NCBI RefSeq assembly: GCF_041429795.1
Contig: NZ_CP163424.1
Location: 1,366,001-1,430,000 of the forward strand
Source of the DNA: Algimonas porphyrae
Lineage (GTDB): Bacteria; Pseudomonadota; Alphaproteobacteria; Caulobacterales; Maricaulaceae
DNA: 64,000 nucleotides
Reading direction: 5' to 3'
Under the pieces are notes generated by a model, which was not told the origin of the DNA, did no database searches, and saw nothing but the letters and a program-made list of their open reading frames with translations. Of the stretch, positions 33,997 through 61,636 are shown one piece after another. The translations under genes and the position numbers were made by a program. Numbering within the stretch: position 1 is the stretch's first letter; each line of letters opens with the position of its first letter.

Positions 33997-34874
33997 GGTT
34001 CGACAATCTCGTAAAGGGTCCCGTTGGGGGATGTGAGGGTGAAGGCACGCTTTCCGGCATAGACAATGCCCGACAGCGTATATGCGACCGCGCCCGTGCG
34101 GTTCAGCACGGCATCGAAGTCGGGATGCTGCAAGGTGGCGAGCGCGATACCGGGATAAAGTTCGCCGTCACGACGCGGGCGGTCTGTCGCCCCGTCCGGA
34201 TATTGATCGACCTCCAGAAAGCAATCGCGCTCATGCTTCACAGTGGCCAATTCATGCTGGGTTCCGTCGGGCAGGCCATGGGCCTTGTTGATCATTGTAT
34301 AGTTGATCGCCATCGACCGGCCTGGCGACAGACCGACACTGTCGCGCAACCAGTCGAGTTCGCGCTGCATGTCATTCGATCCTGTGACGAGGATAAACAG
34401 ACTATCGATCAGGCTTTGCGCTCGCGGCAGATCATATTCGGGCAGGTCGCCATTGATCTGTGTAAGATAGACGACTTCCCGGTCAGGTCCCATGACCTGC
34501 ATCGGATAGATCGAATCCAGCCCAGCGATCTTCTTGGGCGGGCCGATGATCGTGAACGGGCTGTCAATCATGCGGGCATTGACCGCGTCAGTGTCCTGGG
34601 TGCAGATCTCGACAGCATTCCAGCCATAGCTTTTCAGCGGTTCGTAATCCGGATGCGCGGATTGTGCGACGAAACGCAGATAGACCGGGCGACCGGATGC
34701 CGGTCGCAATGTCACCTGACGTCTTCCGACAAGCTTGGCAACGTGCCAGCTCTCTGCGTGATCCGCGTCGAGCACGTCATCCTCGACCAGCTCATAGTCC
34801 AGCCAGGTCCGGTACCAGTCGATGGATCGGTCAAGGTCCGATGACGTCAGTGTGGCTGCGCGGATCAGATGCAT
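33993..34874 (-). CDS. Two-domain VOC family protein
   Basis: A 293-residue protein of two VOC modules, the arrangement of extradiol dioxygenases and related enzymes: the first opens LIRAATLTSSDLDRSIDWYRTWLDYELVE, the second FILVTGSNDMQRELDWLRDSVGLS, ending GTLYEIVEP with the C-terminal metal-binding Glu position. Neither half shows the strict His/His/Glu pattern of true extradiol dioxygenases with certainty, so the reaction is open. It is translationally coupled to the reductase and follows the flavoenzyme gene by 2 bases. Confidence 0.85.
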   Translation of the reverse strand: MHLIRAATLTSSDLDRSIDWYRTWLDYELVEDDVLDADHAESWHVAKLVGRRQVTLRPASGRPVYLRFVAQSAHPDYEPLKSYGWNAVEICTQDTDAVNARMIDSPFTIIGPPKKIAGLDSIYPMQVMGPDREVVYLTQINGDLPEYDLPRAQSLIDSLFILVTGSNDMQRELDWLRDSVGLSPGRSMAINYTMINKAHGLPDGTQHELATVKHERDCFLEVDQYPDGATDRPRRDGELYPGIALATLQHPDFDAVLNRTGAVAYTLSGIVYAGKRAFTLTSPNGTLYEIVEP

Positions 34875-34876
34875 GC

Positions 34877-36454
34877 TCAGGCCCTGTTCAATCCGAGAGC
34901 CCCGGCATTGACGAGGCCGTCAGGGTCCAGCAGCGCCTTGATGCCTTCCAGCACGGACTTCGCCTCCTCGGACATATTGTCGTGGTAGGGATAGGTCCGC
35001 CCGATCTGGAAGTGGGCAGCACCGAAGTCGGTGAAAATGTCCATCACATTCTGGCGCGCCTGGGTCACCAGTGCAGTCGCCTCCGGATTGGCTTCGAACC
35101 GTTTCGCGCGTTTGAGGACGCCGGGTTCGACCGTCTGTTCATGGATCGGATGGATTTCCTCGGGCCAGATGAAGACAGGCTCCACCAGAAAGCCGTTGGT
35201 CGATAATGTGGTGAGCAGATAGCCGGTAACAATGTCATGCTTGTCGAGCTCCGGCTTCATCGTCGCGAACATGGCGTCCATCGCAGCAACGCAGGCTGGG
35301 CCGTCGCCCATCGGGACGATGCCGTGAATGGGAACCCAGCGCTCGCCCTGCGGACCCAGAATGGAATTGAGCGGGCCGAACGGATTGGTGCGCATGATTT
35401 TCGGGATCGAATTTTCGATTTCGCGTCCCGCGTGACGAGACACGATTTCCTTCAGGCGGCGCATCTTGCCGGCGACTTCGCCCTCACTATAGCCTTCGAC
35501 CATCCAGTGAAGGCTGTAGGCAGCGTCGTCCATGAAGCTGCGGCCTGACAGAACGACCTTGGCACCGTCCTTGATTCCCCTGAGCAGTCCGCCCTTGGCC
35601 TTGGTCACGACATTCCCTAGCGTCTTGAAATCGGAGGCTAGGCTAGCACGCGTCATGCGTACGACCTGCAGGTTCGGGTCGAAGCCGAACAGTTCGCAGG
35701 CAAAGCCAAGGCGGCCCATTTCGGCCATGGCTTTCGACCAGCTGGACGCGTCGTCGAATTCGAAACTAGCGTGATCTTCATGCGTGGGCAGGGGTATCAG
35801 ACGCAGGGTCGCTTCGGCCTTGTAGCCGAAACTCCCGGCATCAGACAAAAACAAACCCGTCAGATCCGGGCCATATTGCCGCCAGAACGGCTTGCCTTTT
35901 TCGCTGGCCGCTGTGCCGGTTCTGACAATCGTGCCGTCCGCGAGTACGACGGTCAGCGATGTAACAGAATCAGTCGATGGGCCGTGCGCGCCCGCTCCGA
36001 AAAAAGCATTATTCTGCGACAGGCCGCCACCAATGGTCGACGTCAGGCCGGATAGCGGGCCCCAGAACGGTGTGCGCAGGCCTTTTGCCGATAGCGCGTC
36101 GTAAAGCTGCGCCCATGTCACCCCGGCCTGCACTGTGACAGTCATGTCGGCTTCGTTGATCTCGATAATATCCGTCATCTGCGACAGGTCGAGCATCGCC
36201 ACGCCGTCACGATCCGGTGTGTAACCCTTGGTATAGCTCATGCCACCGCCACGTGGGTTGAGGCGTATTTTCGCCCGGTGCGCCACACGCACGGCTTCCG
36301 CAAGCTGCTCCGTCGTGCGAGGCGATATGACGAAGTCTGCCAGTTCACCCTTGGCCCAGATATCCTCTGAAAACAAAGCGCGGTCGGCCTCCCGGTCGGA
36401 CAGCCCGTCCGCTCCGAGAAGTTGTGTCAGGCTGTCGATAAGGGGCTTGTTCAT
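34877..36454 (-). CDS. FAD-linked oxidase, vanillyl-alcohol oxidase/4-cresol dehydrogenase type
   Basis: A 525-residue enzyme of the PCMH-type FAD family. The FAD-binding half carries RLNPRGGGMSYTKGYT and GGLSQNNAFFGAGAHGPSTDSV. The C-terminal half has the FAD-linked oxidase cap (GFLVEPVFIWPEEIHPIHEQTVE), found in vanillyl-alcohol oxidase, 4-cresol dehydrogenase and eugenol hydroxylase, and ends with DPDGLVNAGALGL. These oxidise para-substituted phenols. An aromatic substrate is therefore plausible for the operon, but related glycolate- or lactate-type oxidases share much of the fold. The start at 36454 is preferred to 36502 on family length. Confidence 0.85.
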   Translation of the reverse strand: MNKPLIDSLTQLLGADGLSDREADRALFSEDIWAKGELADFVISPRTTEQLAEAVRVAHRAKIRLNPRGGGMSYTKGYTPDRDGVAMLDLSQMTDIIEINEADMTVTVQAGVTWAQLYDALSAKGLRTPFWGPLSGLTSTIGGGLSQNNAFFGAGAHGPSTDSVTSLTVVLADGTIVRTGTAASEKGKPFWRQYGPDLTGLFLSDAGSFGYKAEATLRLIPLPTHEDHASFEFDDASSWSKAMAEMGRLGFACELFGFDPNLQVVRMTRASLASDFKTLGNVVTKAKGGLLRGIKDGAKVVLSGRSFMDDAAYSLHWMVEGYSEGEVAGKMRRLKEIVSRHAGREIENSIPKIMRTNPFGPLNSILGPQGERWVPIHGIVPMGDGPACVAAMDAMFATMKPELDKHDIVTGYLLTTLSTNGFLVEPVFIWPEEIHPIHEQTVEPGVLKRAKRFEANPEATALVTQARQNVMDIFTDFGAAHFQIGRTYPYHDNMSEEAKSVLEGIKALLDPDGLVNAGALGLNRA

Positions 36455-36532
36455 GGCAGTGTTTCTATCCGTGATCGGACGGGGTGTCTTGGCGTGCGTC
36501 AATCGCTACGGGAACGCAAATCACTCTCTTTC

Positions 36533-36982
36533 TCAGATCCGGCGTTCCTCGCAGAGCGTGCGACGGATCAGCGCTCCTTCCTTGACGAAGTGCCAGGTTC
36601 GAGAACGGATATTGTTGACGGGGGGAAGAATGATTTCCCAGAATTTCACCCCGACAAGATCTTTCCGGTCCAGGTGCAGCAGGATCACACCGTCCTTCGT
36701 CTCCCAGGCCGATCCTGAAAATGTCGGCGTATCCCACCAGAGCCGACCGTCTCTGAAGGTGCCGTCCAGTCGGGCTTTGTCGATACGTCCGTCCGCATGG
36801 GTGAATATATTGTGCTGGATGTAGGCGAACGGTCCATCATCCGGAAATTCGCAGGTCACGTGACTGTCGTGCCGCTCCAGCTCGACCGCATTCGTGTCAA
36901 GATGGATGTATTGCCCGGTCCAGCACCCTTCATGGGCCCGCATGGCTGGCATGGCATCGTGGAAAGCGGCGTGCTGAGACAT
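36533..36982 (-). CDS. Small hypothetical protein, lipocalin-like
   Basis: A 149-residue soluble protein that I cannot assign firmly. The pattern HEGCWTGQYIHLD, then ARLDGTFRDGRLWWDTPTFSGSAWE and FWEIILPPVNNIRSRTWHF, resembles DUF3598 or related lipocalin-fold proteins: a Gly-Cys-Trp opening strand and alternating beta strands. It is the first gene of the minus-strand operon, 78 bases before the flavoenzyme, and divergent from a TonB receptor. A carrier role for a hydrophobic substrate is an inference only. Confidence 0.65.
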   Translation of the reverse strand: MSQHAAFHDAMPAMRAHEGCWTGQYIHLDTNAVELERHDSHVTCEFPDDGPFAYIQHNIFTHADGRIDKARLDGTFRDGRLWWDTPTFSGSAWETKDGVILLHLDRKDLVGVKFWEIILPPVNNIRSRTWHFVKEGALIRRTLCEERRI

Positions 36983-37180: not shown

Positions 37181-39364
37181 ATGACCAACTCTTTCCTCAT
37201 CCGCACAGCGTCAGCCGCAGCCCTGGCTGGGGCGATGCTGTTGCCGACACATGCGTTCGGACAGATCGACGAAGTAATCACGACTGCCCAGCGGCGGGCC
37301 GAAACGGCGCAGGACGTTCCTGTGTCCCTGACGGTGCTCAGCGCCGAGGATCTGGAAGTGCGTCAGATCGAGGACACGCTCGATCTTCAGGCTTACGTTC
37401 CGAACCTCAATCTCGGCACCAATACGGGCACGTCCAACGCAGCGCGGATTTTTCTGCGCGGCATTGGTGAGGACGAATCCCGCGGTCTCGTCGAACCGGC
37501 GGTCGGCACCTATGTGGACGGCGTCTATATGGGCCGTCTTGTCGGTTCCCTGTTCGACCTGGTCGATCTGGAGCAAATCGAGGTTCTGCGCGGACCGCAG
37601 GGCACGCTTTACGGTCGCAACAGCAATGGCGGTGCGATCAAGATTACGTCCAAGCGTCCGGACACGGAAGGTTTTGCCGCCAATGGCAAGCTGACCATCG
37701 GCAATAATGAACGCCTGGACCTCAAGGGCGTAGTCAATATGCCGATCTCTGACAGTACGGCTATTCGCGTTTCGGGACTTTACCGAACGCGCGACGGATT
37801 TTTCGATATTGCGCCGGGTCCCAGCTTTGGAAATGCTGTTTATGAGAATATTGGTCAGCTTGATACGATGGCTGTTCGCGCCTCTCTGAGTCAGGATTTT
37901 GGGAACTGGAACCTGCTGATCACCGGCGATTATACGGATGATGATAGCGACCCTATCCCGTCCTCCATTGTCGACACGCTCGACGCTGATGGTGATCTGT
38001 TCACAATTGAACCCGCACCGGGAACGGCCTGTTTCAACGATGGGGCGACACAACCGACCGCACCGGCCGGCCCGTTCCAGTTCACCCGTCCGGTTGGCTG
38101 CTTTGCCGGTTTCACCAATGAAACCAAGAGCCGCGGTCTGTCGGCGCAGCTGACTGGCGATATCGGCATGTTCACGATCCAGTCGACTTCGGCCTTCCGC
38201 CGTCTGGATGACAGCCTGTCATCACATATTGGCTTTCCCTATCTGGAGGATACGGATCAGGAGCAGTTGAGCCAGGAAGTCACGGCCTCGTCCAACTTCG
38301 ACGGTCCGTTCAATTTTGTCTCTGGTGTCTATTACTTCAAGGAAGACCTGAATCTGGATACAGCCTTCGTCTTCCCGTTCCGGGTGGCAGCGGATGTGGA
38401 AAGCTTCGCGATCTTCGGTCAGGGGGAGTATCGGGCCGGCGATTTCACGCTGACGGGCGGCCTGCGCTATACGGATGAAAACCGTGACTTCGAAGGCATC
38501 GCTTTCAGCTCGGGCCTGACCAATGCCGTTGATGTCGGTGGCAGTAATGTCAGCTATACGGCGAAGGTCGACTATGACGTCAATGAGGATATTCTGCTGT
38601 TCGCGTCCTATGCCACGGGGTTCAAGGGCGCTGCGGTTTCTCCCGATTGCTTCAGCCCGGTGGCCTGCTTCCTGCCGGTCACGGAGGAAGAGGTCGGGAC
38701 GATCGAACTGGGCTTCAAGTCGCGTCTGGCTGACGACCGCGTTCGTCTGAACGGTACCTATTTCAACAGCCAGTATGACGATCTGCAGATTGCGGCGACC
38801 GTGCCAGGGCTTGGTTTCACACGCTTCAATGTCGACGAAACCAAGATTTCAGGGTTCGAGTTCGATTTCACCTTCGCGCCGAACGAACGGTTCGAACTGA
38901 ACGCCAATCTGGGTTTGCTGGACGGCGAATATGAGCAACTCTCGCTGTTACAGGCACAAAGCCTGCTCGGCGCGCTTGGCGCAGCCAATTGTCCGGGCGG
39001 GGTCGCCACAGTCGATTGCGCGCAGGATCTGGAGCTGAAAAATGCGCCGTCCTTCAAGGCCAATATCGGTGCCATCTACAATCAGCCTTTCGCTAATGGC
39101 ATACTCACATTCTCGGGCGATATCAGCTTCGAGTCGGACAGTTTCAATCTGGTTGCCAATGCCCCGTTCAGCGCCGCTACGGACGCACCGGACCTGCTCA
39201 ATGGCCGCATCGCCTACAAGCCTGACGATGCATTCTGGAATGTCGCCGTCTGGGCGCGTAATCTGACCGACCGGGAATATTTCCGGGCTGGTACGGCGAC
39301 CGGAAACGCTGTCTATGCGGCTGAACCGATGACCTACGGGATCGACTTCGGTTTTGAATTCTAG
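37181..39364 (+). CDS. TonB-dependent receptor
   Basis: A 727-residue outer-membrane receptor with AGGAG before the ATG. The signal peptide ends THAFGQ and the TonB-box-like DEVITTAQRRAE follows. The plug (IEVLRGPQGTLYGRNSNGGAI, KITSKRP) and barrel are complete, ending GIDFGFEF. It is divergent from the VAO-type operon and is followed by a terminator and then the LeuC-like operon, so it may import the substrate of either. The large receptor group to which it belongs is common in sphingomonads and Hyphomonadaceae. Confidence 0.93.
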   Translation: MTNSFLIRTASAAALAGAMLLPTHAFGQIDEVITTAQRRAETAQDVPVSLTVLSAEDLEVRQIEDTLDLQAYVPNLNLGTNTGTSNAARIFLRGIGEDESRGLVEPAVGTYVDGVYMGRLVGSLFDLVDLEQIEVLRGPQGTLYGRNSNGGAIKITSKRPDTEGFAANGKLTIGNNERLDLKGVVNMPISDSTAIRVSGLYRTRDGFFDIAPGPSFGNAVYENIGQLDTMAVRASLSQDFGNWNLLITGDYTDDDSDPIPSSIVDTLDADGDLFTIEPAPGTACFNDGATQPTAPAGPFQFTRPVGCFAGFTNETKSRGLSAQLTGDIGMFTIQSTSAFRRLDDSLSSHIGFPYLEDTDQEQLSQEVTASSNFDGPFNFVSGVYYFKEDLNLDTAFVFPFRVAADVESFAIFGQGEYRAGDFTLTGGLRYTDENRDFEGIAFSSGLTNAVDVGGSNVSYTAKVDYDVNEDILLFASYATGFKGAAVSPDCFSPVACFLPVTEEEVGTIELGFKSRLADDRVRLNGTYFNSQYDDLQIAATVPGLGFTRFNVDETKISGFEFDFTFAPNERFELNANLGLLDGEYEQLSLLQAQSLLGALGAANCPGGVATVDCAQDLELKNAPSFKANIGAIYNQPFANGILTFSGDISFESDSFNLVANAPFSAATDAPDLLNGRIAYKPDDAFWNVAVWARNLTDREYFRAGTATGNAVYAAEPMTYGIDFGFEF

Positions 39365-39430: not shown

Positions 39431-40777
39431 ATGGCGAAGACGCTTTTCGATAAAATCTGGGACGCGCACCGCGTCACCACTTTGCCATCTGGCGAGGACC
39501 TGATCGCGGTCGATCGCGTCTTTCTGCATGAACGTACGGGCTCGGTTGCGTTGGAAAGCCTGCTCGCATCAGGGCGCATGCCGATCGATCCCGATCGTGT
39601 TTTCTGCACCATGGACCATATCGTCAGTACGGAAGAGGGGCGAGGGCGGAATGATGCGCGCACACCGGGCGGCGACGTCTTCATCACTGCGACGCGTTCG
39701 GCTGCGGCCAAGACCGGGATCCAGCTGATCGATGTGGACAGTGCGGATCAGGGTATCGTTCACGTCATTTCGCCGGAGCTCGGCATTGCTCAGCCTGGCC
39801 TCACGCTGGTCTGTCCGGATAGTCACACCTGCAGTCAGGGCGCGCTCGGTGCAGCGGCCTGGGGCATCGGATCGACCGACGCCGAACATGCGATGGCGAC
39901 AGGGACGCTGCGCCTCAAGCAACCGCCGCAAACGCGCATCCGCGTCGACGGCAGGTTGGCGGATGGCATAACGGCCAAGGACCTCATCCTGCATATTATT
40001 GGCACGCTGGGCGCGGACGGGGCGAAGCGCTGCGCCGTCGAATTTTGTGGCGATGCGATCGAAGCCCTCGACGTTGAAGCGCGTCTGACGCTCTGCAATA
40101 TGGCTGTCGAAATGGCGGCGTTTACGGCGATCATCGCGCCGGATGATGTGACATTCGCCTATCTGAAGGGTCGCCGCTATGCCCCAGAGGACGATCAGTG
40201 GGACCGGGCCGTGTCGATCTGGCGGACTCTGATGACCGACAAGGACGCCAGCTTCGATCATGAGCATGTGTTCGATGCCCGTTTGATCGGACATACGCTC
40301 ACATGGGGAACGTCGCCGGGTCAGGCCGGGCGGCTAGACGGCACAACGGGTCATTCGGACTATATGAATGTGGAGTCCGGGACGCCGCTTCTCGGTTTGC
40401 CAATTGGCGGGGCCTTTATCGGCTCCTGCACCAATGCGCGGATCAGCGACCTGCGGGCTGCGGCTGACATATTGCGCGGGCAACGTGTGGCAGACGGGGT
40501 CACGGCGATCTGTGTGCCGGGTTCGATGGCCGTGCGGCGACAGGCCGAGATGGAAGGGATCGACCGCATTTTCCGGGCTGCCGGATTTGAGTGGGGCGAA
40601 GCGGGCTGCGCCTTCTGTTTTTATGCCGGGGGGCGGACCTTTGCGCCGGGCACGCGGGTCATCAGTTCCACCAACCGGAACTTCGAAGGGCGGCAGGGGC
40701 CCGGAGTCAGGACGCATCTGGCCAGCCCAGCCGTGGTTGCGGCCAGTGCCATTGCCGGACGGATCGCCGCGCCATGA
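39431..40777 (+). CDS. Aconitase-family hydro-lyase large subunit (LeuC-like paralogue)
   Basis: A 448-residue protein close to 3-isopropylmalate dehydratase large subunits. Cluster Cys positions are visible in AFIGSCTNARISDLRAA and in GEAGCAFCFYAGGRTF. In leucine-synthesis LeuC the second site reads GCSMCLAMN, so the neighbourhood of the cluster (FCFYAGG) is different here. That and the catabolic neighbours suggest a substrate other than isopropylmalate, for example a methyl- or alkyl-substituted malate or maleate. It overlaps the small subunit gene as ATGA. It stands directly behind a terminator, so it should have its own promoter. Confidence 0.85.
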   Translation: MAKTLFDKIWDAHRVTTLPSGEDLIAVDRVFLHERTGSVALESLLASGRMPIDPDRVFCTMDHIVSTEEGRGRNDARTPGGDVFITATRSAAAKTGIQLIDVDSADQGIVHVISPELGIAQPGLTLVCPDSHTCSQGALGAAAWGIGSTDAEHAMATGTLRLKQPPQTRIRVDGRLADGITAKDLILHIIGTLGADGAKRCAVEFCGDAIEALDVEARLTLCNMAVEMAAFTAIIAPDDVTFAYLKGRRYAPEDDQWDRAVSIWRTLMTDKDASFDHEHVFDARLIGHTLTWGTSPGQAGRLDGTTGHSDYMNVESGTPLLGLPIGGAFIGSCTNARISDLRAAADILRGQRVADGVTAICVPGSMAVRRQAEMEGIDRIFRAAGFEWGEAGCAFCFYAGGRTFAPGTRVISSTNRNFEGRQGPGVRTHLASPAVVAASAIAGRIAAP

Positions 40778-41346
40778 ATACGCCCTTCATCACCCATGAC
40801 GGCATTGCTGCGCCACTGCGCCGGGACAATATCGACACGGACCAGATCATTCCGTCGCGTGAAATGAAATCCGTCTCCAAGACCGGACTGGCCAAGGGTC
40901 TGTTTGCTGGGCAGCGTTATCTGGACGGTCGGACACCCAATCCGGACTTTGTCCTGAACCAACCTGACTTTGCCGAGGCGACAATCCTGCTGGGCGGTTC
41001 GAATTTCGGATGCGGAAGTTCCCGAGAACATGCCGTCTGGGCGCTGAAGGAATATGGCATACGTGCCGTCATCGCCCCCAGCTTCGGTGAGATTTTCTGG
41101 GGCAATATGATCGGCAACGGTCTTCTGCCGATCATGTTAGAGGAACCTGTGATCGATCAGCTGCCGCACCGCATCCATATCGATCTGCCCGCGCAAACGG
41201 TCAGTGGTCACCCGTTCGCGATCGATGCGGCAGCCAAGCGGCGTCTTGTCGAAGGACTCGACGCGATCGCGCAAACACTCCAACATCAGCCAGCCATCGA
41301 GGCGTTTCTGACAAGAGACCGGAAGGACAGGCCATGGGTCTACTGA
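40774..41346 (+). CDS. Aconitase-family hydro-lyase small subunit (LeuD-like paralogue)
   Basis: A 190-residue swivel domain: RDNIDTDQIIPSREMKSV at the start carries the substrate-site residues, and LLGGSNFGCGSSREHAVWAL is the classic LeuD loop, followed by APSFGEIFWGNMIGNGLLPI. ATG at 40774 lies within the stop codon of the large subunit gene; a longer open frame begins upstream but overlaps that gene. It forms a heterodimer with the preceding product. It overlaps the VOC lipoprotein start by 13 bases. Confidence 0.88.
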   Translation: MNTPFITHDGIAAPLRRDNIDTDQIIPSREMKSVSKTGLAKGLFAGQRYLDGRTPNPDFVLNQPDFAEATILLGGSNFGCGSSREHAVWALKEYGIRAVIAPSFGEIFWGNMIGNGLLPIMLEEPVIDQLPHRIHIDLPAQTVSGHPFAIDAAAKRRLVEGLDAIAQTLQHQPAIEAFLTRDRKDRPWVY

Positions 41347-42356
41347 CACGCTTATTGCTGACGAGCATGGCAGGCTTGGTGGCGCTCGGTGGCTGCACAA
41401 CAGACCCTGAACCCGTCCAGAATGTCCTTCCGGACCTGGAGGCGGTGCAAGCGCCCCCGGAGAGTGGACCCGTCGTATCCCAGCCTTGGGATGCCGTCCG
41501 GATCGGAACCTATGATCCTGCAGATTTTGCCCGTCTGTTCACGGACATTGGCGGATACACCGTCATCGATCGGGACGGGACAAAGCTCACCTTGCGAAAG
41601 GACGGGGTTGGTCCCCGCATCGTTCTGGACAAGATGCCGGCGAGCGCTCCGATGGCGCGAGCGGCGGATGCAAAGAGCTGGGAGCCGGGCTGCTACTGGT
41701 CCCTCATGATGCGAGCGAAAAATGTTCCGTCGATTGTTGCAGATGCGGAGGCCTTGGGGTGGTTGCCGAAAACCCCTGTCGCTTATCTCGAGTTTGGCCC
41801 GTCCAAGCTCAATGTCGTTGTTCTGACCCATCAGAAAACAGGCATGCAGGTGCAACTTTACGAACGTCTGACGACGCCATTGCCCGACGGTTATCCCGAC
41901 TTTGACCGTATCGGAATACCGTTCAACATCATGCAGATGGCCAGTGATCGCGATGCGACCTTCGCCATGTTTACGCAGCAGTTGAACTTCGCAACATTCT
42001 ATCACGGCGAGCCATATCTGTCGCCGGAACCCGAACTGATGCCGCTGGGCATTCCGGTCGCGTTGACAACGACCGTTCCCTATCGCGCCTCGATCGTCTC
42101 ACCGCTAGATGGCATGGAGACGGGACGGTTCGAGATGATCGAAATCATGGGACAGGAGGCGGGGCTGAAAGGTCGCGACTTCACAAAGAGCTGCACGAAT
42201 GACGCGGTCGGTCTTACGGAGGTCATTTATGATGTCCCGCATACGCGCCCGATTTTCGATCGCCTCGAAAGCGCCGGGGCGACCGTGATCCCGGATAAGG
42301 GTCTGGTGCTGGTCGCGCCGGATGGCGCGCGCATTCGTTTCGACCACGCGGACTAG
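41334..42356 (+). CDS. VOC-domain lipoprotein, two modules
   Basis: A 340-residue predicted lipoprotein (LLTSMAGLVALGGC, lipidated Cys21), followed by a linker of Pro and Glu and two VOC-like modules (WDAVRIGTYDPADFARLFTDIGGYTV; then FDRIGIPFNIMQMASDRDATFAMFTQQLNF). Like the lipoprotein at 30474 it takes a normally cytosolic fold to the periplasm or outer membrane. The start lies within the end of the LeuD-like gene, so it is co-translated with the hydro-lyase. A substrate-binding or isomerising role is a guess. Confidence 0.8.
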   Translation: MGLLTRLLLTSMAGLVALGGCTTDPEPVQNVLPDLEAVQAPPESGPVVSQPWDAVRIGTYDPADFARLFTDIGGYTVIDRDGTKLTLRKDGVGPRIVLDKMPASAPMARAADAKSWEPGCYWSLMMRAKNVPSIVADAEALGWLPKTPVAYLEFGPSKLNVVVLTHQKTGMQVQLYERLTTPLPDGYPDFDRIGIPFNIMQMASDRDATFAMFTQQLNFATFYHGEPYLSPEPELMPLGIPVALTTTVPYRASIVSPLDGMETGRFEMIEIMGQEAGLKGRDFTKSCTNDAVGLTEVIYDVPHTRPIFDRLESAGATVIPDKGLVLVAPDGARIRFDHAD

Positions 42357-42361
42357 CCGAT

Positions 42362-43630
42362 ATGAAGACCGTGACCCAGTCGCTGGCGACATTGCTCGCG
42401 CGCCCGATTGGCCAAGAGGATCGCGCACGTGCGGCCTTGTTGCTGCTTGACTGGACAGGATGCGCGGTGGCTGGGCGTTCGGAGCCAGCCGGACAAAAAA
42501 TCGCGGCGGCATTCCCTGACGAAATCGGGCGCTGTACGCGTATCGGCGCAAACCCGGCCTCACCGCAAATGGCTGCCCTGCATAATGGCTGCCTCGGCAA
42601 TGTTCTGGAGATGGACGATGTCGACAAGCGCGCTGTTCTACACGCCGCGCCGACCGTCATCCCTGCGGCCTTGGCGATGGCGGAGCATGTTGGTGCATCG
42701 ATGGACGATTGTCTGGACGCGATTGTGGTGGGCTACGAGGCGGCGATCCGCATCGGTCGCGCGGTCGGGCCGGGGCATTATGCGTTCTGGCACAATACGG
42801 CGACTTGCGGGCCGTTCGGCGCAGCTGCATCGGCGTGCTATCTGTTGAAGGGCAGCGACCTGGTCAGCGCGCTGGGCCTTGCCGGGACCCAATCTGCGGG
42901 TCTCTGGCAGACCCGTCACGAAACCGATTCCATGGCCAAACAGCTGCACGCCGGCCATGCGGCGCAAGTCGGTGTGCAGTCCGCATTATTGTCGGCGCAG
43001 GGCTTTCAGGGTCCCCGGACTATTCTGGAAGGGGAACAAGGTTTCTTCGCTGCACTTTGCCCGGGCGCAGACCCCAAAGATGTCATGTTCGCGCATGAAG
43101 GCTGGCTGCTGCATGAAACCTCGCTGAAACCTTATCCAGCTTGCCGTCACGCTCATCCAGCCATTGATGCGGCGCTCAAAGCCGACGATGATGGCGGGGA
43201 GGTGCTGCTGCGGACCTATGCCGACGCGATCAAGTTTTGCGACCGCCCTGAGCCCAGTAGCGTGATCGAAGCCAAGTTCAGTCTGCAACAGAGTGTCGCC
43301 GTGGCCCTGACGGGTCGTTCGCCGACATTGAATGATTTCGAACCGGACGCGATCGCCAGCCATGCCGCGACACGAACCCGTGTTAGGGTTGAGGAGAGTC
43401 GCAATTTCAACGAGGCCTATCCGGCCCACTATGGTGCAAGTATTGAAATCGGGGGACAGGTCTGGATCGCGACGGACGCATTAGGAGATCCCGAAGTGCC
43501 GATGCGATACGACCAGATCCGGCAGAAGGCCTTTGGCTTAATGCGCCATGGCGGCATGGATGATCCAGACCCGTTGATCGATGCGGCGCTCGACCGGATT
43601 TTGGCAACCTATTGCGCCCGGCTTCCATAA
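42362..43630 (+). CDS. MmgE/PrpD family protein (first copy)
   Basis: A 422-residue member of the MmgE/PrpD superfamily, which contains 2-methylcitrate dehydratase, cis-aconitate decarboxylase and iminodisuccinate epimerase. The N-terminal helical domain has LLLLDWTGCAVAG, HNGCLGNVLEMDDVDKRAV and AIVVGYEAAIRIGRAVG, and the lid domain begins LKPYPACRHAHPAIDA, where Lys and His line the active site. It is shorter than PrpD (about 480). The gene is followed at 19 bases by a second, only distantly related copy. A pair suggests two consecutive steps, or a heteromer. Confidence 0.9.
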   Translation: MKTVTQSLATLLARPIGQEDRARAALLLLDWTGCAVAGRSEPAGQKIAAAFPDEIGRCTRIGANPASPQMAALHNGCLGNVLEMDDVDKRAVLHAAPTVIPAALAMAEHVGASMDDCLDAIVVGYEAAIRIGRAVGPGHYAFWHNTATCGPFGAAASACYLLKGSDLVSALGLAGTQSAGLWQTRHETDSMAKQLHAGHAAQVGVQSALLSAQGFQGPRTILEGEQGFFAALCPGADPKDVMFAHEGWLLHETSLKPYPACRHAHPAIDAALKADDDGGEVLLRTYADAIKFCDRPEPSSVIEAKFSLQQSVAVALTGRSPTLNDFEPDAIASHAATRTRVRVEESRNFNEAYPAHYGASIEIGGQVWIATDALGDPEVPMRYDQIRQKAFGLMRHGGMDDPDPLIDAALDRILATYCARLP

Positions 43631-43649
43631 GATCGGATAGAAGGACGAC

Positions 43650-45014
43650 ATGACCTCAATCTCACCGATCTTCGCGCGATATGCGCTCAATCAGTCCGTC
43701 TTCTCGGATTCGGCTTATGATGCGGCTAAAACTTTTCTTCTCGATAGTCTGGGAGTCGGGATTGCCGGCGCGAAAGCGCCTTTCCAGTCGAGCGTTCACG
43801 CGGTGGTGCGAAGCTGGGGTGAGGGCGGTCCGGTTCACCTTTGGGGGCACGAAACGACAGCTCCGCAAGCCAGCGCAGCCTATCTGAACGGCTTTCAGAT
43901 TCACTCCATGGAGTATGATTGCGTCCACGAACCGGCGGTTGTCCACCCGATGGCGACTATCCTTGCCGCGATCGGCTCCGAGGTCGAAGCCCGCGGTCAG
44001 ACATCCGGCTTCGAACTGATGGAAGCCCTGATCGTGGCTGTCGATGTGGCGGCGGAACTGGGTGTTGCGGTGAAAAGTCCGCTGAAATTTTTCCGCCCGG
44101 CCACGGCGGGTCTGTTCGGGGCGACACTGGGAATCGCCCGTCTGCGCGGGTTCGACGAAGCCACGTCCCTGTCTGCCATGGGTTGCGCCCTCGCGCAGTG
44201 TGCCGGCGTGATGCAGGCCCATGTCGAAGGTAAACCGACTTTGCCGGTGCAGATTGCGGGCGCAGCGCGCGCAGCGGTTGTCGCATGCGATCTGGCACAA
44301 TCGGGACTGCATGGCCCCGAACAGTCTCTGGAAGGCCCGTTTGGTTATTTTGCCATGTTCGAAGACGAAGTCGACCTGGCATCCGCCGCCGAAGCGCTGG
44401 GTAAATTGCACCGGATCACGGAGGTCAGTTGGAAACCGTTTCCAACAGGCCGGGCGGCGCAGGGCGGCATTCCCCTGGTCCAGCGACTGATGGAACAGGG
44501 CGTAACCCCGGACACGCTCGAAACCCTGGAATTACAGGCTCCGCCCATTATTCCGCGACTGGTGGCTCGTCCTGCGCATGCCGGAATGAGCCCGAATTAT
44601 GCGCGTCTGTGCTTTCCCTATCTGGCGGCTGTGACGCTAAATCGTGGGACCGTAGGCCTGTCTGATTTCACGACTGAAAGCCTGAATGATCCTGAGCTCC
44701 TGGCGCTGGCAGGGCGTGTCTCTGTGACGACCAATCATATTGAGGACCCGGCGGAATTCGTCCCGCAGACCGCGGTCGCACAGCTGAAAGATGGCTCTGA
44801 GCGCATTGCGCTGACGGCGAAACTGTTCGGGTCGCCGGCAGATCCGCTGTCGCGAGAGCAGCACATCGCAAAATTTCGGAACTGTGTTCGCTTCGGCTTG
44901 AGCGATGACAAGGCAGATGAGGTGGCTGACAGGCTTATCGCGAGTGTGGACGATCTGGAACGGTTCGACGATGTGCGCGAGCTTTTCAGCTTGGCGGGAG
45001 GGATAATCACGTGA
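43650..45014 (+). CDS. MmgE/PrpD family protein (second copy)
   Basis: A 454-residue MmgE/PrpD protein from a different subgroup to its neighbour: it has FLLDSLGVGIAGAKAPF and AYLNGFQIHSMEYDCVHE in the helical domain, and WKPFPTGRAAQG in the lid where the first copy has KPYPACRHAH, so the active-site His is replaced here. Ribosome site AAGGA precedes ATG. Its stop overlaps the GTG start of the CoA-ligase-like gene as GTGA. The two copies are not recent duplicates. Confidence 0.9.
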   Translation: MTSISPIFARYALNQSVFSDSAYDAAKTFLLDSLGVGIAGAKAPFQSSVHAVVRSWGEGGPVHLWGHETTAPQASAAYLNGFQIHSMEYDCVHEPAVVHPMATILAAIGSEVEARGQTSGFELMEALIVAVDVAAELGVAVKSPLKFFRPATAGLFGATLGIARLRGFDEATSLSAMGCALAQCAGVMQAHVEGKPTLPVQIAGAARAAVVACDLAQSGLHGPEQSLEGPFGYFAMFEDEVDLASAAEALGKLHRITEVSWKPFPTGRAAQGGIPLVQRLMEQGVTPDTLETLELQAPPIIPRLVARPAHAGMSPNYARLCFPYLAAVTLNRGTVGLSDFTTESLNDPELLALAGRVSVTTNHIEDPAEFVPQTAVAQLKDGSERIALTAKLFGSPADPLSREQHIAKFRNCVRFGLSDDKADEVADRLIASVDDLERFDDVRELFSLAGGIIT

Positions 45015-46402
45015 GTGCGACCTATTTCGACTATGTCGATCCCGATGCCATTCGGGCGGATCACCCGATCGGTGAGGGCTTCATCGATTTTGCCAGGAAT
45101 ACGAGCCGTGACGCGCTGTTCGCGCATCAGGACCGATTGTTTCGGCGGATGCTGGTCCTGGCCTGGAAAACGCCGTTTTACCAGAAACTCTGGGGCGATC
45201 AGGGGATCGAACCCGGCGACATTGACGGGCTGAAGGACATTGAAAAGCTGCCAATGTTCGACAAGTCGGACATCATGGCCAGTATTGAGCGCGATCCACC
45301 GTTGGGGGACTTGACCGGGCTTGAAACCTATGCGGCGGATAAACGTCCCCCGGTCAAGGTTCATACGACGTCCGGGACGACTGGTAAGCCGCAAGTCCTT
45401 GTTTTCGGACCGAAATCCCGCGAAGTGCAAAATCTTTTGCTGGCCCGTCTCTATACGCTGCAGGGTATCGGGCAGGGCGATATCGTCCATTCCGTCTATG
45501 GCCACGGTCCGATCAATGGCGGGCATTATGTCCGCGAAGCGGTGACGCACTGGACGCAGGCGATTTTCTTGTCCGCAGGGACCGGGGTCGAGACGCGCTC
45601 GGTCAAGCAGGTTCAAATGATGGCAGATTTCCGCTCGACCGCAGTCGTCGGGTTCGCCGACTACATCAAGAAACTGGCCAAGGTTGCCCGTGAGCAGGGA
45701 TTGGAACCAGGCAAGGACATCCCGATCCGGACGATTTCAGGGCATATGGGCCGCGAGGATAAGAACAGCGTCTCCGAAATGTGGGGCGGGGCTGAATGCT
45801 ATGACTGGTACGGCGTCGGCGATACGGGCGCGATTGCGGGCGAGGGGCCTGATCAGGACGGACTCTATGTTCTGGAAGACGCACATTATCTCGAAGTCTG
45901 CGACATCGATACGGGTGCGCCGGTCAGGGACGGGCAAACGGGCGATATGGTCGTGACCTGCCTGTTCAAGGACGATGTCTATCCGATTATCCGCTTCAAT
46001 ACCCATGACGTCACAGCCGTACGTCCGGGTAAGAGTTCGCTGGGGTTTGAGCTGACCCGGATCGAAGGGTTTCTGGGGCGATCAGATAATATGGTGAAGC
46101 TACGCGGCATTAATATCTTCCCGCAGGCGATTGGTCCCCTGATGGAAGAGATCGAGGCGTTTGGCGGTGAGTTCTATTGCAAGGCGGAGCGGGATGCGAC
46201 CGGGCGCGACGAGATGATCGTCGTGGCGGAAACGAAAATTCCCGTGACACCTGATCTGGAGCAGCGCTTCGAAGCGCTGTTGAAGAGCAAGCTGGGTCTC
46301 GGCATGGGCGTGAAGCTTGTCCCCATGGGGACAACCAGCGACGTGACCCAGGTCGATGTCCGGCAAAAGCCGATCCGGCTTGTGGACACGCGGTTTGACT
46401 GA
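45011..46402 (+). CDS. Phenylacetate-CoA-ligase-like adenylate-forming enzyme
   Basis: A 463-residue member of the PaaK branch of the AMP-binding family. The phosphate loop is VHTTSGTTGKP, the A5 position reads WYGVGDTG in place of the usual YGxTE, the A7 motif is PIIRFNTHDVT, and A8 is GRSDNMVKLRGINIFP. The C-terminal lid ends with RQKPIRLVD, supplying the catalytic Lys. Such enzymes make acyl- or aryl-CoA from an acid, ATP and coenzyme A. It would activate an acid made or released by the other enzymes of this operon. GTG start, overlapping the previous stop. Confidence 0.87.
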   Translation: MSATYFDYVDPDAIRADHPIGEGFIDFARNTSRDALFAHQDRLFRRMLVLAWKTPFYQKLWGDQGIEPGDIDGLKDIEKLPMFDKSDIMASIERDPPLGDLTGLETYAADKRPPVKVHTTSGTTGKPQVLVFGPKSREVQNLLLARLYTLQGIGQGDIVHSVYGHGPINGGHYVREAVTHWTQAIFLSAGTGVETRSVKQVQMMADFRSTAVVGFADYIKKLAKVAREQGLEPGKDIPIRTISGHMGREDKNSVSEMWGGAECYDWYGVGDTGAIAGEGPDQDGLYVLEDAHYLEVCDIDTGAPVRDGQTGDMVVTCLFKDDVYPIIRFNTHDVTAVRPGKSSLGFELTRIEGFLGRSDNMVKLRGINIFPQAIGPLMEEIEAFGGEFYCKAERDATGRDEMIVVAETKIPVTPDLEQRFEALLKSKLGLGMGVKLVPMGTTSDVTQVDVRQKPIRLVDTRFD

Positions 46403-46406
46403 TCAC

Positions 46407-47612
46407 GTGACCGCCCAGTCCCGTCTGGAGTCATGCTACGAAGCGATGAAGGCGGAAAATGATCGCATCAATGCGGTCATCGATGCCTATAATGACCTCG
46501 CCATACCTGAAATGGCCGACAGCGATATGCGGGCCGAAGAGGGTCGGCCTCTATCTCAAATCGACGGCATGCCTATTGGCGTTAAGGCCAATATCGCCGT
46601 TGAAGGTAAGTTCTGGCATGCAGGCATCAAGGCTTACGCGTCCCGAAAAGCGGATGACGATGCCCGTGTGGTGAAGCGATTGAAGGCTGCTGGTGCCTTG
46701 CTGGTCGGAACCCTGAATATGGAAGAAGGCGCGCTCGGCGCGCAGACGGATAATCCCTGGTTCGGCAAGACGATCAATCCGCTCAAGGATGGTTACACAC
46801 CCGGCGGAAGCTCCGGCGGCAGTTCTGCGGCTGTGGCGGCGGGCTTCGTCGAAGCTGCGCTCGGTACGGACACGATGGGCAGTGTGCGCATTCCGTCAGC
46901 CTATTGCGGATTATGGGGCTTCAAGCCGAGCCATTCTGACGCGATGATGGAAGGCGTCGTCCCGCTGTCTCATACGCTCGACACGGTCGGGGTTCATGCC
47001 GCCTCACTACAAACCTGTGTGGACGTGATGCAGGTCATCGTGGAGGCGGATCTGTCGGGTGGAACCGCGGGAGACATCGTGGCGCTGGACTGGGGCGATG
47101 CGGTGGAGGTGGAGCCGTTCATTGCGGAGTCATTTGCAAAAGTCGCGACAGGACTCCCGTCGACGGACATCGCGCCTTACGCCTATGGCCGGTCTCGCCG
47201 GGCTGGTCTGATCCTGTCCGAAGTCGAAGGTTACGCGGCGCATCGGTCCCGGCTGCAGACCAAGCCCGACGGGTTCTCGGACTTTTTCCGGGGCATGCTC
47301 GAATATGGGCGGGACCTTCCACAAGACCGTATCGAGGCGGCCTATGCGCATGTCGACGCGCTGCGTTCCGCTGACTATCCTGATTTCATTCTGATGCCGA
47401 CAGCCCCGCAGACAGCGTTCCGGTTCGGTGATCCCGTGCCGGCCAATCAGGCCGATTTCACAGCCTTCGCCAATCTCTCCGACCGCCCGGCCATCGCCTT
47501 TCCGATTGGCAGGGACCGACGCGGCCTGCCTGTCAGTGCGCAGATCGTCGGGCCGAGGGGTCGCGAAGCGGATCTCGTCGCGACAGTCAGACGGTTTTAC
47601 GACGCGCTCTAG
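46407..47612 (+). CDS. Amidase signature family hydrolase
   Basis: A 401-residue amidase. Catalytic Lys lies in GVKANIAVEG, the cis-Ser in GGSSGGSSAAVAAG and the nucleophile in LGTDTMGSVRIPSAYCG; the family form is TDTGGSxRxPA, so the first Gly of the oxyanion loop is Met here. It hydrolyses an amide to an acid and ammonia, or, in some relatives, ligates. GTG at 46407, four bases after the previous stop, is chosen; an upstream in-frame ATG at 46356 would overlap the ligase gene deeply. Together with the ligase it would turn an amide to an acyl-CoA. Confidence 0.85.
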   Translation: MTAQSRLESCYEAMKAENDRINAVIDAYNDLAIPEMADSDMRAEEGRPLSQIDGMPIGVKANIAVEGKFWHAGIKAYASRKADDDARVVKRLKAAGALLVGTLNMEEGALGAQTDNPWFGKTINPLKDGYTPGGSSGGSSAAVAAGFVEAALGTDTMGSVRIPSAYCGLWGFKPSHSDAMMEGVVPLSHTLDTVGVHAASLQTCVDVMQVIVEADLSGGTAGDIVALDWGDAVEVEPFIAESFAKVATGLPSTDIAPYAYGRSRRAGLILSEVEGYAAHRSRLQTKPDGFSDFFRGMLEYGRDLPQDRIEAAYAHVDALRSADYPDFILMPTAPQTAFRFGDPVPANQADFTAFANLSDRPAIAFPIGRDRRGLPVSAQIVGPRGREADLVATVRRFYDAL

Positions 47613-47654: not shown

Positions 47655-48587
47655 ATGTCGAGAACCAAAGACCGGGCCTTGGCCGCTGCCGAACGCGCCT
47701 ACATGCTTGTGCGCAAGGACCCCCGTCGCCTGATCACATTGGAGGCCGTGGCGAAGGAAGCCGGCTATTCCGCATCCCGTCTGCACACGCTTTTTCTGCA
47801 CAGATACGGCGAAACTTTCGGCGCATTCGTCAGGCGTGTCCGGCTCGAAAAGGCCTGCGGTCTGATGCGCGCTCATCAGAACTGGACCCTGACGCAGATC
47901 GCTCTGGAGGCGGGCTATTCGGAAAGTTCTGATTTCAGCCGCTCATTCCGCCGCGCTTTTGGCACAGCGCCGCGGGAATGGGACCGGGTCGCACCGCTGA
48001 ACGGCCTCGGCGATAATGAGAGGAATCGTCAAGCGGAACAGGATCCGGCGTGCGACAATGCGGTCATGAAAGCTGCTCCCGATCTATTAGCGCCGCCCGG
48101 CTCCGTTCGGATCGAACATCGGCCCAGACAGACCGTTGCCATATATGCCGTGCCTCAGGCCGATCAGGCCCAGAATTTGCGCACTGGCTGGGATCGGTTC
48201 GAGCGCTGGCTGTGCGACCGGGACCAGCGACGGCCTGAGCGCATGATGATGGGCTTAAGCTATGACAGCCATTACGACTCGCCCGGAGACGTGTTCCGCT
48301 TTGAGCTGGCTCACCCTGTTGACCCTGAGATCCACGGTCATGCCGGGGTCGTGATCCGCGACCTACCAGAAACACAGGCCGCCGTATTGTCGTGTCAGGG
48401 TGGCCTGGCGGAATTCTCATCGGCCTGGGACTATCTGGGCCGCGTCTTTCTGCCGGACAGCCCATGGGAACCGGCGTCCGGTCCCGCCATGGAGATCTAT
48501 TTCGACGATCCAAGACCGTCCGACATGGCCCACTGGAATATGGATTGCGTTTTGCCCGTACAGTGCTGCGAAGGAGAAGCATCATGA
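47655..48587 (+). CDS. AraC-family regulator with GyrI-like effector domain
   Basis: A 310-residue regulator. The double helix-turn-helix is N-terminal (ITLEAVAKEAGYSASRLHTLFLHRYGETFGAF; IALEAGYSESSDFSRSFRRAFG), and the C-terminal half from about residue 150 is a GyrI-like small-molecule-binding domain (VRIEHRPRQTVAIYAVP and GGLAEFSSAWDYLGRVFLP). This is the MarA/Rob-type order. It is probably the regulator of the operon before it or of the fused gene after it, with which it overlaps as ATGA. The inducer is not predictable. Confidence 0.9.
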   Translation: MSRTKDRALAAAERAYMLVRKDPRRLITLEAVAKEAGYSASRLHTLFLHRYGETFGAFVRRVRLEKACGLMRAHQNWTLTQIALEAGYSESSDFSRSFRRAFGTAPREWDRVAPLNGLGDNERNRQAEQDPACDNAVMKAAPDLLAPPGSVRIEHRPRQTVAIYAVPQADQAQNLRTGWDRFERWLCDRDQRRPERMMMGLSYDSHYDSPGDVFRFELAHPVDPEIHGHAGVVIRDLPETQAAVLSCQGGLAEFSSAWDYLGRVFLPDSPWEPASGPAMEIYFDDPRPSDMAHWNMDCVLPVQCCEGEAS

Positions 48588-50534: not shown

Positions 50535-50608
50535 GATATGTCCCCATTCGTGAGTGCTGAACGCGTGACCGGAGTGTCGATGAGACACAAGTCAACAGCC
50601 GCAGTCAT

Positions 50609-50726: not shown

Positions 50727-50771
50727 GGGCTGAGAACTCTCGGGATGAGAACTCTGGGGCCTAGAACTCAG
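50727..50771. repeat. Three 15-base tandem repeats at the end of the enoyl-CoA hydratase gene
   Basis: GGGCTGAGAACTCTC, GGGATGAGAACTCTG and GGGCCTAGAACTCAG follow one another without gaps. The third copy contains the stop codon of the enoyl-CoA hydratase gene (minus strand) and its last few codons, so the array may have grown from the gene end. Confidence 0.7.
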
Positions 50772-51525
50772 GACGTCTTTTTTGCAGGAAGGCGCGGAAA
50801 CCTTCGCCAAAATCGTCACTGCTGAAGCCTGCGAGGAATTGCGCGCGTGTTGTGTCGGAGTCCGTACGTTGACCGTCCTGATAGGCGGCAATCATCGATT
50901 TGGTCACGCGCAGGCTTTCGGGCGACAGACGTGTCAGCCCTTGCGCATAGGCCATGACTTCGGTTTCGAGCGTGTCGACACTATGGACCTGGTGGATCAG
51001 GCCCATTTTGCGGGCCGGTTTGGCCATGATGATCCGTGCGGACAGCAACATGTCCTTGGCGTTGGCCACGCCGACGGCATCGATCAGGCGCGCAATGTCG
51101 CCAAAGGGATAGACGAGGCCGAGTTTGGCCGGGGTGATAGCAAATTTGGCTGTGCTGTCGGCCATTCGAATGTCGCAACACAGCGCCATGCCGGCACCGC
51201 CTCCGACGCAGGCCCCACGAATGGACGCGATCGTGGGACTCGGAAACGCGGCCAACGTATCAAAGGCGGCCTGAATGTCGGCACTGATTTTGGCGGCTGA
51301 CTCCGCTGTCGCATAGAGCGTTTCGAATTCGCTAATGTCCGCCCCGGCGGCGAAGTGATCACCGTCGCCTTGCACGATCAGGACGCGCGGACTTGCCTCT
51401 TCCAGCTTCGCAAGAACGTCCGGCAGCGCAGCCCACATGGCGGCCGTCAGCGCATTACGACGCGCCGGTTGCGACAAAGTCAGCCGGGCAATCCCGTCAT
51501 CAATCTCTGTTTTCAGATTATCCAT
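50761..51525 (-). CDS. Enoyl-CoA hydratase/isomerase family protein
   Basis: A 254-residue crotonase. The oxyanion-hole motifs are present: HFAAGADISEFETL (first CoA loop) and IRGACVGGGAGMALCCDIRMA (second). The typical catalytic Glu region reads PAKLGLVYPFGD, where the Glu of the hydratases (usually in the PExxLG position) is replaced, so the reaction may be isomerisation or hydrolysis, not hydration. It overlaps the aldehyde dehydrogenase gene by 8 bases and is likely co-transcribed. Confidence 0.88.
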   Translation of the reverse strand: MDNLKTEIDDGIARLTLSQPARRNALTAAMWAALPDVLAKLEEASPRVLIVQGDGDHFAAGADISEFETLYATAESAAKISADIQAAFDTLAAFPSPTIASIRGACVGGGAGMALCCDIRMADSTAKFAITPAKLGLVYPFGDIARLIDAVGVANAKDMLLSARIIMAKPARKMGLIHQVHSVDTLETEVMAYAQGLTRLSPESLRVTKSMIAAYQDGQRTDSDTTRAQFLAGFSSDDFGEGFRAFLQKRRPEF

Positions 51526-61635: not shown

Positions 61636-61636
61636 C

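Follow-up and report, generated by a model that had tools for sequence, protein, structure and literature searches.

What might be degraded by six tightly coupled genes that combine a hydro-lyase of the aconitase superfamily, a lipoprotein, two unlike MmgE/PrpD proteins, an acyl-CoA ligase and an amidase? The row in question occupies positions 39431 to 47612 of a 64,000-nucleotide stretch of Algimonas porphyrae DNA (contig NZ_CP163424.1, positions 1,366,001 to 1,430,000), which is referred to here as the window and to which coordinates belong unless the genome is named. We put the probability at about 0.55 that the row and the island of genes around it encode an uncharacterised catabolic pathway, in which cyclic imides, lactams or amides would be converted to C2/C3-substituted 1,4-dicarboxylates, and these in turn to pyruvate and an acyl-CoA. 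The evidence that carries this proposal is a four-gene core conserved in other genomes, together with the families of the genes that travel with it.

The conserved four-gene core

A sequence-only reading had described six tightly coupled frames, and neighbouring genes do overlap by 4, 13, 4 and 47 bases or lie 5 and 19 bases apart, with the start of leuD moved to the ATG at 40774; the listed start, 40591, is an upstream GTG within leuC. Pfam agrees with the families it had named, namely Aconitase, Aconitase_C, two unlike MmgE/PrpD proteins, AMP-binding_C_2 and Amidase. Conservation was assessed in two sets of relatives. Loci in named genomes were gathered by a profile scan with the ligase as the query, and the best 80 of 292 were kept, several of them truncated by contig ends; gene presence in these loci was counted by tblastn, since open reading frame calling missed or misread some genes. 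The second set comprises 150 genomes of the order to which the window belongs, in which PrpD2 was counted at an identity of at least 45%, leaving out G053 and G087 with PrpD2 matches of 27-29%. PrpD2 relatives occur in 28 of the 150, and the ligase gene adjoins prpD2 in 26 of the 28, which are called core genomes below.

Among the 80 loci, prpD2 was detected in 79, the amidase gene in 78 and prpD1 in 53. The prpD2 and lig genes are neighbours in 79 loci, prpD2-lig-ami is contiguous on one strand in 75, and the contiguous row includes all four genes in 51. This conservation of gene neighbours supports the earlier suggestion of a catabolic operon not yet characterised. The six families together do not form one conserved unit: window-type LeuC was found in four of the 80 loci (L066, L067, L116 and L118) and the lipoprotein in two, and prpD1-prpD2-lig-ami alone is conserved. 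By record title, the hosts include Hyphomonas, Henriciella, Hirschia, Parvularcula, Brevundimonas, Phenylobacterium, Caulobacter, Niveispirillum, Stenotrophomonas, Lysobacter, Betaproteobacteria and metagenome-assembled genomes (MAGs) from blooms or ponds, a range that spans alpha-, beta- and gammaproteobacteria. Some of the hosts, Phycosocius and the UKL13 pair among them, live with algae or cyanobacteria. Within the best 80 of 292 loci, the closest ligases are those of Hellea MAGs, at 81 and 77%.

PrpD1 (42362..43630) and PrpD2 (43650..45014), encoded like the rest of the row on the forward strand, are two different MmgE/PrpD proteins by Pfam and were aligned to Bacillus IRG1 (7bra) and to cis-aconitate decarboxylase, respectively. 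They are the two MmgE/PrpD_N matches at E<=0.001 in the genome, which is a single contig of 3.17 Mb. Both share their fold family and several catalytic residues with cis-aconitate decarboxylase, IDS epimerase and 2-methylcitrate dehydratase, but at 18.5 (PrpD1) and 18.9 bits (PrpD2) they fall far below the cut-off of 458 for TIGR02330, the model of the last enzyme (PrpD). H85, E88, H99 and K262 of PrpD2 are kept at 97% or more among 72 relatives' rows, as are E83, H94, K193 and K256 of PrpD1 among 51. These residues were equated with those in PMC12290011 by spacing and alignments, not by structure; PrpD1 has no clear equivalent of the first histidine, and PrpD2 none of the later histidine or of the first lysine. 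According to that paper, the characterised substrates of MmgE/PrpD enzymes are 1,4-dicarboxylates substituted at C2/C3, and bulkier groups at C3 might fit into the site (PMC12290011). Nothing specific was found for the decarboxylation that the sequence-only reading had placed in its route, and an isomerase of methylsuccinate and an epimerase are also among the characterised members of the family, as the same source reports (PMC12290011).

The ligase (45011..46402) carries the Pfam AMP-binding_C_2 domain and matches PaaK-like ligases in the PDB, with a score of 151.7 bits against TIGR02155 (phenylacetate-CoA ligase PaaK; cut-off 646.3). Its gene is followed directly on the 3′ side by the amidase gene (46356..47612) in 76 of the 80 loci. 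The amidase exceeds the PF01425 cut-off at 260.6 bits, and its Lys, cis-Ser and Ser align with those of GatA, residues that we take to form the catalytic triad. The altered oxyanion loop that had been reported is present, reading GTDTMGS where GatA has GSDTGGS. Upstream of prpD1, the protein at 41334..42356 had been called a lipid-anchored VOC protein. A signal-like stretch at the N-terminus and a Cys21 invariant in four sequences fit a lipoprotein, as in the first half of that description; the second half is not confirmed, Pfam giving nothing at E<=5 and NCBIfam nothing at E<=0.001. Homologues occur in L062 and L094, where the gene also lies directly 5′ of prpD1, and weakly in L070.

Some further observations concern the surroundings of the core. 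In Stenotrophomonas and Lysobacter (L129, L131, L136 and L137) it is preceded by a LysR-like gene, assigned by sight, and by the gene for K52, an FAD protein of the flavocytochrome-c type. K26, a methyltransferase some 400 residues long, recurs near the island, as in L128 (191-1393), L156, L162 and L165 and at 2.377 Mb of the Algimonas genome itself (L183), and is found in nine of the 80 loci; in several relatives its gene is followed by that for a small partner protein, K47.

The LeuCD-like pair

The first two genes of the row encode a LeuC-like large subunit (39431..40777; Pfam Aconitase) and a LeuD-like small subunit (40774..41346; Pfam Aconitase_C, sequence). Like the LeuCD isopropylmalate isomerase, the window LeuC belongs to the aconitase superfamily and keeps three cluster cysteines, one in GSCTN and two in GCxxC, which we take to be the positions of the Fe-S ligands. 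Dimethylmaleate and citraconate hydratases are aconitase-superfamily relatives of LeuCD.

That the pair is a spare isopropylmalate isomerase, beside the core by chance, would agree with the 600 bits at which the window LeuC passes NF009116, a model named 3-isopropylmalate dehydratase, and with the lack of the prpD2-lig core in five of the 16 genomes of the order that carry a window-type LeuC (matches of at least 53%). However, this explanation is highly improbable. The window LeuC scores 474.4 bits against TIGR00170, short of the equivalog cut-off of 560.25, whereas the other LeuC of the genome (genome positions 3061787-3063145) passes it at 603.9 bits. In a tree of 32 rows, rooted for drawing, the window LeuC groups with 16 other rows, two of which are one gene, at a support of 99/95, while the genome's other LeuC falls in a separate group with a support of 83/65 only. 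The segment GCAFCFY, previously noted as a departure from leucine-synthesis LeuC, is the local form of a clade signature, GC[AGS][MFY]CF[YF], common to 14 of 15 distinct relatives in the clade (L199 is the exception); read further, the signature is GCxxCF[YF]AGG, as against GCSMC[IL][AG]MN in the other group. The comparison by phylogeny and second copy that had been proposed as a way to refute the earlier reading came out in its favour, and the biosynthetic assignment was dropped on the genome's second LeuC and the tree. As judged from its sequence, the pair is not the biosynthetic isopropylmalate isomerase.

Of the 16 carriers of window-type LeuC, 13 have PrpD2 (Fisher p 8e-9, shared ancestry ignored) and 11 have the prpD2-lig core (Fisher p 1.3e-6, likewise ignoring shared ancestry). 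Because no more than 40 kb separate leuC of this clade from prpD2 in 10 of 13 genomes with both (8 of 11 if the ligase is required), the LeuCD pair belongs to the island, although its position inside the core operon is seen in this genome only.

A predicted route to pyruvate and an acyl-CoA

The gene unit extends past the six genes, its flanking members spanning about 27.8 to 62.6 kb of the window. An import-regulate-degrade unit had been drawn from the TonB-dependent receptor before the row (37181..39364, +) to the AraC regulator after it (47655..48587, +). Both genes are confirmed by Pfam, which adds a GyrI-like ligand domain to the regulator; the extent of the unit was underestimated. In the 80 loci, the neighbours that recur beside the core are a GntR regulator (49, by sight), two class III CoA-transferases (46 each), an acyl-CoA dehydrogenase (40), an acetyl-CoA hydrolase/transferase (40), an enoyl-CoA hydratase (39), a MaoC protein (37), a CitE-type lyase (33), three PuuE-like families (24, 18 and 17), the family of the protein at 36533..36982, here K12 (24), a nitrilase (21), an aldehyde dehydrogenase (ALDH; 20) and an FAD oxidase (20). 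Much of what tells of the chemistry was overlooked by the sequence-only reading: the amidohydrolases, a distant CoA module, the FAD oxidase with its ALDH, and the proteins that resemble phycobilin lyases.

In two Hellea-like loci (L062 and L094), genes for MaoC, the acyl-CoA dehydrogenase and two CoA-transferases are followed on one strand by lipoprotein-prpD1-prpD2-lig-ami. The corresponding module of the window genome lies at 2.365-2.371 Mb, 0.95 Mb from the core, and beyond it, as far as 2.375 Mb, lie one gene of the CitE type and one that is PuuE-like. A further group at 2.564-2.569 Mb holds genes for an HMG-CoA-lyase-like and an isochorismatase-like protein, two PuuE-like proteins and a CoA-transferase; the isochorismatase-like protein and the best of the PuuE-like proteins are 75% and 76% identical to their island homologues. 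The MaoC of relatives, 90% identical to that of the window genome, matches the mesaconyl-CoA hydratase Pfam family. For CitE the best NCBIfam match is RipC, the itaconate C-C lyase (185.9 bits, cut-off 375), and succinyl-CoA:mesaconate transferase is the best or second-best match of the CoA-transferases, below its cut-off. The FAD-linked oxidase of the window (34877..36502, -; Pfam FAD_binding_4) can be tied to its ALDH (51518..52948, -; Pfam), since the two form one protein of 1023 residues in L161 (11380-14448, by Pfam). The same fusion, judged by size and start, is seen in L164 (10572-13598).

Relatives of each enzyme named here are present in the genome; the activities and the order of the steps are predicted. 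TonB receptors and transporters would provide import, and the FAD oxidase with ALDH may turn a side group, be it alcohol or methyl, into an acid. The presence of amidase, isochorismatase-like and PuuE-like proteins suggests an amide or imide upstream: a cyclic imide would be opened by the PuuE-like amidohydrolases (2.566 and 2.374 Mb), and the remaining amide removed by the amidase or the isochorismatase-like enzyme. The substituted dicarboxylate would then be deprotonated by PrpD1/PrpD2 and reprotonated at C2 or C3, in the manner of an isomerase or epimerase. Saturated acids would be activated to CoA esters by the class III CoA-transferases or the PaaK-like ligase, followed by acyl-CoA dehydrogenase and MaoC hydratase, and unsaturated, maleate-type acids would be hydrated by the LeuCD-like enzyme. 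Cleavage by the citramalyl-CoA-lyase-like (RipC/CitE) or HMG-CoA-lyase-like enzyme would yield pyruvate and an acyl-CoA.

Among the closest known systems is the ict-ich-mcd-mmgE-ccl cluster of pseudomonads and Cupriavidus. This cluster reportedly serves the breakdown of methylsuccinate and itaconate, with a methylsuccinate isomerase as its MmgE/PrpD protein, and the P. aeruginosa version has a glyoxalase-family gene (PMC12290011). The island shares with it the CoA-transferase, acyl-CoA dehydrogenase, MaoC, CitE-type lyase and MmgE/PrpD families, and the window genome holds all five (window 42362-45014 and genome 2.365-2.373 Mb). Here ich is taken to be of the MaoC type and ccl of the CitE type. 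The five genes are not in one cluster in the window genome; in L062 and L094 the CoA-transferases, acyl-CoA dehydrogenase, MaoC and both PrpD are together. Unlike the published cluster, the island locks two MmgE/PrpD proteins to a PaaK-like ligase and an amidase, and it adds amidohydrolases, the FAD oxidase-ALDH pair, LeuCD and calycin proteins. We read the island, which is real and conserved and for which no assigned function was found, as a variant of branched-dicarboxylate catabolic clusters, with a testable and possibly important substrate.

Several observations weigh against the proposed route. Its enzymes lie at three separate places in the window genome, and the enzymes compared with NCBIfam models fall short of the cut-offs, broad subfamily models aside, so their specificity is inferred. 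The role of the PuuE-like proteins as imide hydrolases is likewise a conjecture: the one at genome position 2566012 scores 118.6 bits against TIGR03212 (cut-off 424.6), and the PuuE substrate is called a small cyclic imide in one source (PMC3084791). The CoA-transferases could do the job of the PaaK-like ligase. G060 and G110, kept out of the core genomes and still counted among the 28, have prpD2 without an adjoining ligase gene, and several loci outside the order have the core with few of the recurrent neighbours.

A different upstream substrate would be an N-heterocycle, nicotinate- or hydantoin-like, degraded through substituted maleates. The anaerobic nicotinate route employs dimethylmaleate hydratase and then dimethylmalate lyase, and Caulobacter loci do hold LeuCD-type hydratases together with a methylisocitrate-lyase-like protein, beside the several C-N hydrolases. 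Such a substrate is nonetheless improbable. Some relatives' loci hold methylisocitrate-lyase-like and glutaryl-CoA-dehydrogenase-like genes, but the former occurs in seven of the 80 only, and reading the loci by eye brought up no ring hydroxylase of the nicotinate kind, no search for one having been made. A steroid or lignin route was set aside, its diagnostic genes not having been noticed by eye, again with no search made, and so was a quinone-ring route, which leaves the C-N hydrolases unexplained.

Other members of the window complete this layout. To the left lie genes for a second TonB-dependent receptor (27847..30396, +; Pfam) and a VOC-family protein (30474..31103, +; Pfam Glyoxalase), followed on the reverse strand by the K22 protein (32282..33007), which has no Pfam match over cut-off and is found in 12 of the 80 loci, an ADH_N_2-type oxidoreductase (33004..33996; Pfam) and a weakly VOC-like protein (33993..34874; Pfam Glyoxalase 19.7 bits, cut-off 20.6). 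To the right lie those for an enoyl-CoA hydratase-family protein (50761..51525, -; Pfam ECH_1) and a carbon-nitrogen hydrolase of the nitrilase family (53030..54058, +; Pfam). A gene for an FG-GAP repeat protein at 49440-50588, which separates the enoyl-CoA hydratase gene from the AraC side, is not a recurrent neighbour. No tRNA and no Rfam family at the gathering score was found in the window, and its G+C content, taken per 4-kb step, is 0.56-0.61.

Bilin-lyase-like proteins and the pigment question

Two island proteins relate to phycobilin lyases, one as indicated by sequence and the other by its predicted fold. The first (60817..61635, +) has no Pfam match at E<=1 (the PF06206 cut-off is 21 bits), yet matches by phmmer, at 208 bits, a protein of L157 (11053-12087) that itself scores 103 bits against PF06206 (CpeT). 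A profile of 13 such proteins (A4) has as its sole match in the PDB at E<=1 the phycocyanobilin lyase CpcT (4o4o/4o4s, E 1.4e-11); the island proteins are longer than CpeT/CpcT and have a conserved C-terminal part. The window and L157 share, partly by sight, the gene order VOC-ADH-VOC-MFS-...-DUF1330-CpeT-DUF1838. In the window this comprises, on the forward strand, a VOC protein, an ADH_N_2 oxidoreductase, a second VOC protein and an MFS transporter (56508..59770; Pfam for ADH and MFS, both VOCs by sight), an alpha/beta hydrolase (59766..60515; Pfam), a DUF1330-like protein (60512..60820; by sight, and in the equivalent position in L157), the diverged CpeT/CpcT-family protein and a DUF1838 protein (61625..62557; PF08894, 232 bits).

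The second protein is K12 (36533..36982, -), which has no Pfam family at E<=5 and thus no sequence match to CpcS/CpeS or DUF3598; its CpcS-likeness was suspected before structure prediction. The model, with a predicted local distance difference test score (pLDDT) of 96.1, is a 10-strand calycin-type barrel, for which the best fold matches are BFA1, OssO (a spirocyclase), nitrobindin, a Nostoc DUF3598 protein and two phycobiliprotein lyases, CpeS (4tq2) and Ycf58 (3bdr), the latter being CpcS. Further down come UnaG and many fatty-acid-binding proteins.

Within the order, the presence of these families goes with that of the core. Among the 150 genomes, the core is found in 18 of the 25 with CpeT, in 20 of the 24 with K12 and in 19 of the 20 with DUF1838, the counts being the same with the 28 PrpD2 genomes, and 8 of 10 CpeT, 9 of 9 K12 and 10 of 10 DUF1838 genera fall among the 12 genera of those 28. 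The distance to prpD2 is 40 kb at most for DUF1838 in 10 of 19 core carriers, for K12 in 13 of 20 and for CpeT in 4 of 18, a last count that excludes the diverged copy of the window, 16 kb from prpD2, and comes from assemblies many of which are in many contigs. DUF1838, a family name with no function attached, is almost confined to core genomes in the order.

The substrate that would account for most of the flanking genes, and the boldest fit, is monopyrrolic tetrapyrrole fragments, a suggestion made tentatively. Put more broadly, the island may possibly belong to a bacterial pathway mineralising open-chain tetrapyrroles (phycobilins, heme bilins or chlorophyll catabolites), as a special case of the conversion of imides to dicarboxylates outlined above. 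The CpeT-like and CpcS/nitrobindin-like barrels would hold the bilin or its pieces, and oxidation would give monopyrrolic maleimides or succinimides, each with a methyl group and a second side chain. The imide hydrolase and the amidase would turn these into a 2-methyl-3-R-maleate or -succinate, the methyl-bearing carbon would be hydroxylated by LeuCD or by acyl-CoA dehydrogenase and MaoC, and a citramalyl- or HMG-CoA-type lyase would always release pyruvate and R-CH2-CO-CoA. The propionate rings (hematinic acid) would thus give glutaryl-CoA, the ethyl rings butyryl-CoA and the vinyl rings butenoyl-CoA, so that one logic would serve all rings.

The same data bear on a narrower explanation, that only branched dicarboxylates of fungal, algal or gut origin are degraded (methylsuccinate, itaconate, larger alkyl homologues and their amides), with the pigments unconnected and the CpeT- and CpcS-like proteins acting as general ligand-binding barrels. 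The CoA module is close to the published methylsuccinate/itaconate cluster (PMC12290011), and the calycin fold serves fatty-acid-binding proteins and spirocyclases too. Outside the order, CpeT is not enriched in core genomes (5 of 21, against 31 of 200 genomes from the order of one of the 21, a set that includes three of them). Even so, we consider this explanation rather unlikely. In the main text of PMC12290011 the word amidase is absent, whereas here an amidase is in the core and other C-N hydrolases recur; the tracking of the core by CpeT, DUF1838 and K12 within the order also argues against it.

The missing enrichment of CpeT in other orders counts against the link between the island and pigments, as do several further points. 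Eight of the 26 core genomes are without CpeT, and seven CpeT carriers of the order are without the core. Four Caulobacter-type core genomes (G066, G091, G101 and G141) lack CpeT, K12 and DUF1838, though they do have heme oxygenase. The barrel fold binds many ligands, and no ring-opening enzyme was identified, no search having been aimed at one. This counter-evidence is the reason for rating the conversion of imides to dicarboxylates at somewhat better than even odds and its extension to tetrapyrroles below them.

Three candidate links were rejected. CpeT does not serve as a general marker of the core, for the counts just given; heme oxygenase is not a required partner, being present in 9 of the 26 core genomes and in 8 of the remaining 124; and the K19 membrane protein, considered as a link to heme, has no Pfam match at E<=5. 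Separately, a genome of another order (G186) has eight CpeT-family matches, so non-cyanobacterial genomes can carry many CpeT relatives. The Algimonas genome itself has a second cluster with CpeT and DUF1838 at 1163987-1175000 (L169), where a flavin-oxidase-like protein, a VOC protein, an MFS transporter and a TonB receptor are seen by sight, and a second K12-family copy at 2216379-2216822 (L170), close to which a flavin-oxidase-like protein and an MFS transporter are likewise seen by sight.

Each year, chlorophyll is synthesised and broken down at a scale of 10^12 kg, and in the same study hematinic acid was found in leaves, maleimides were undetectable, and earlier work is cited in which senescent leaves and lake sediments contained both hematinic acid and maleimides (PMC7318184). 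No bacterial gene set consuming such fragments was found in the open-licence literature among the matches listed, often a small part of all matches. If the tetrapyrrole proposal is true, a long-open question would become testable in ordinary laboratory isolates. Pigments aside, the analysis singles out four co-travelling genes, for two MmgE/PrpD proteins, a ligase and an amidase, to which no assigned function was found, and DUF1838 gains a pathway context.

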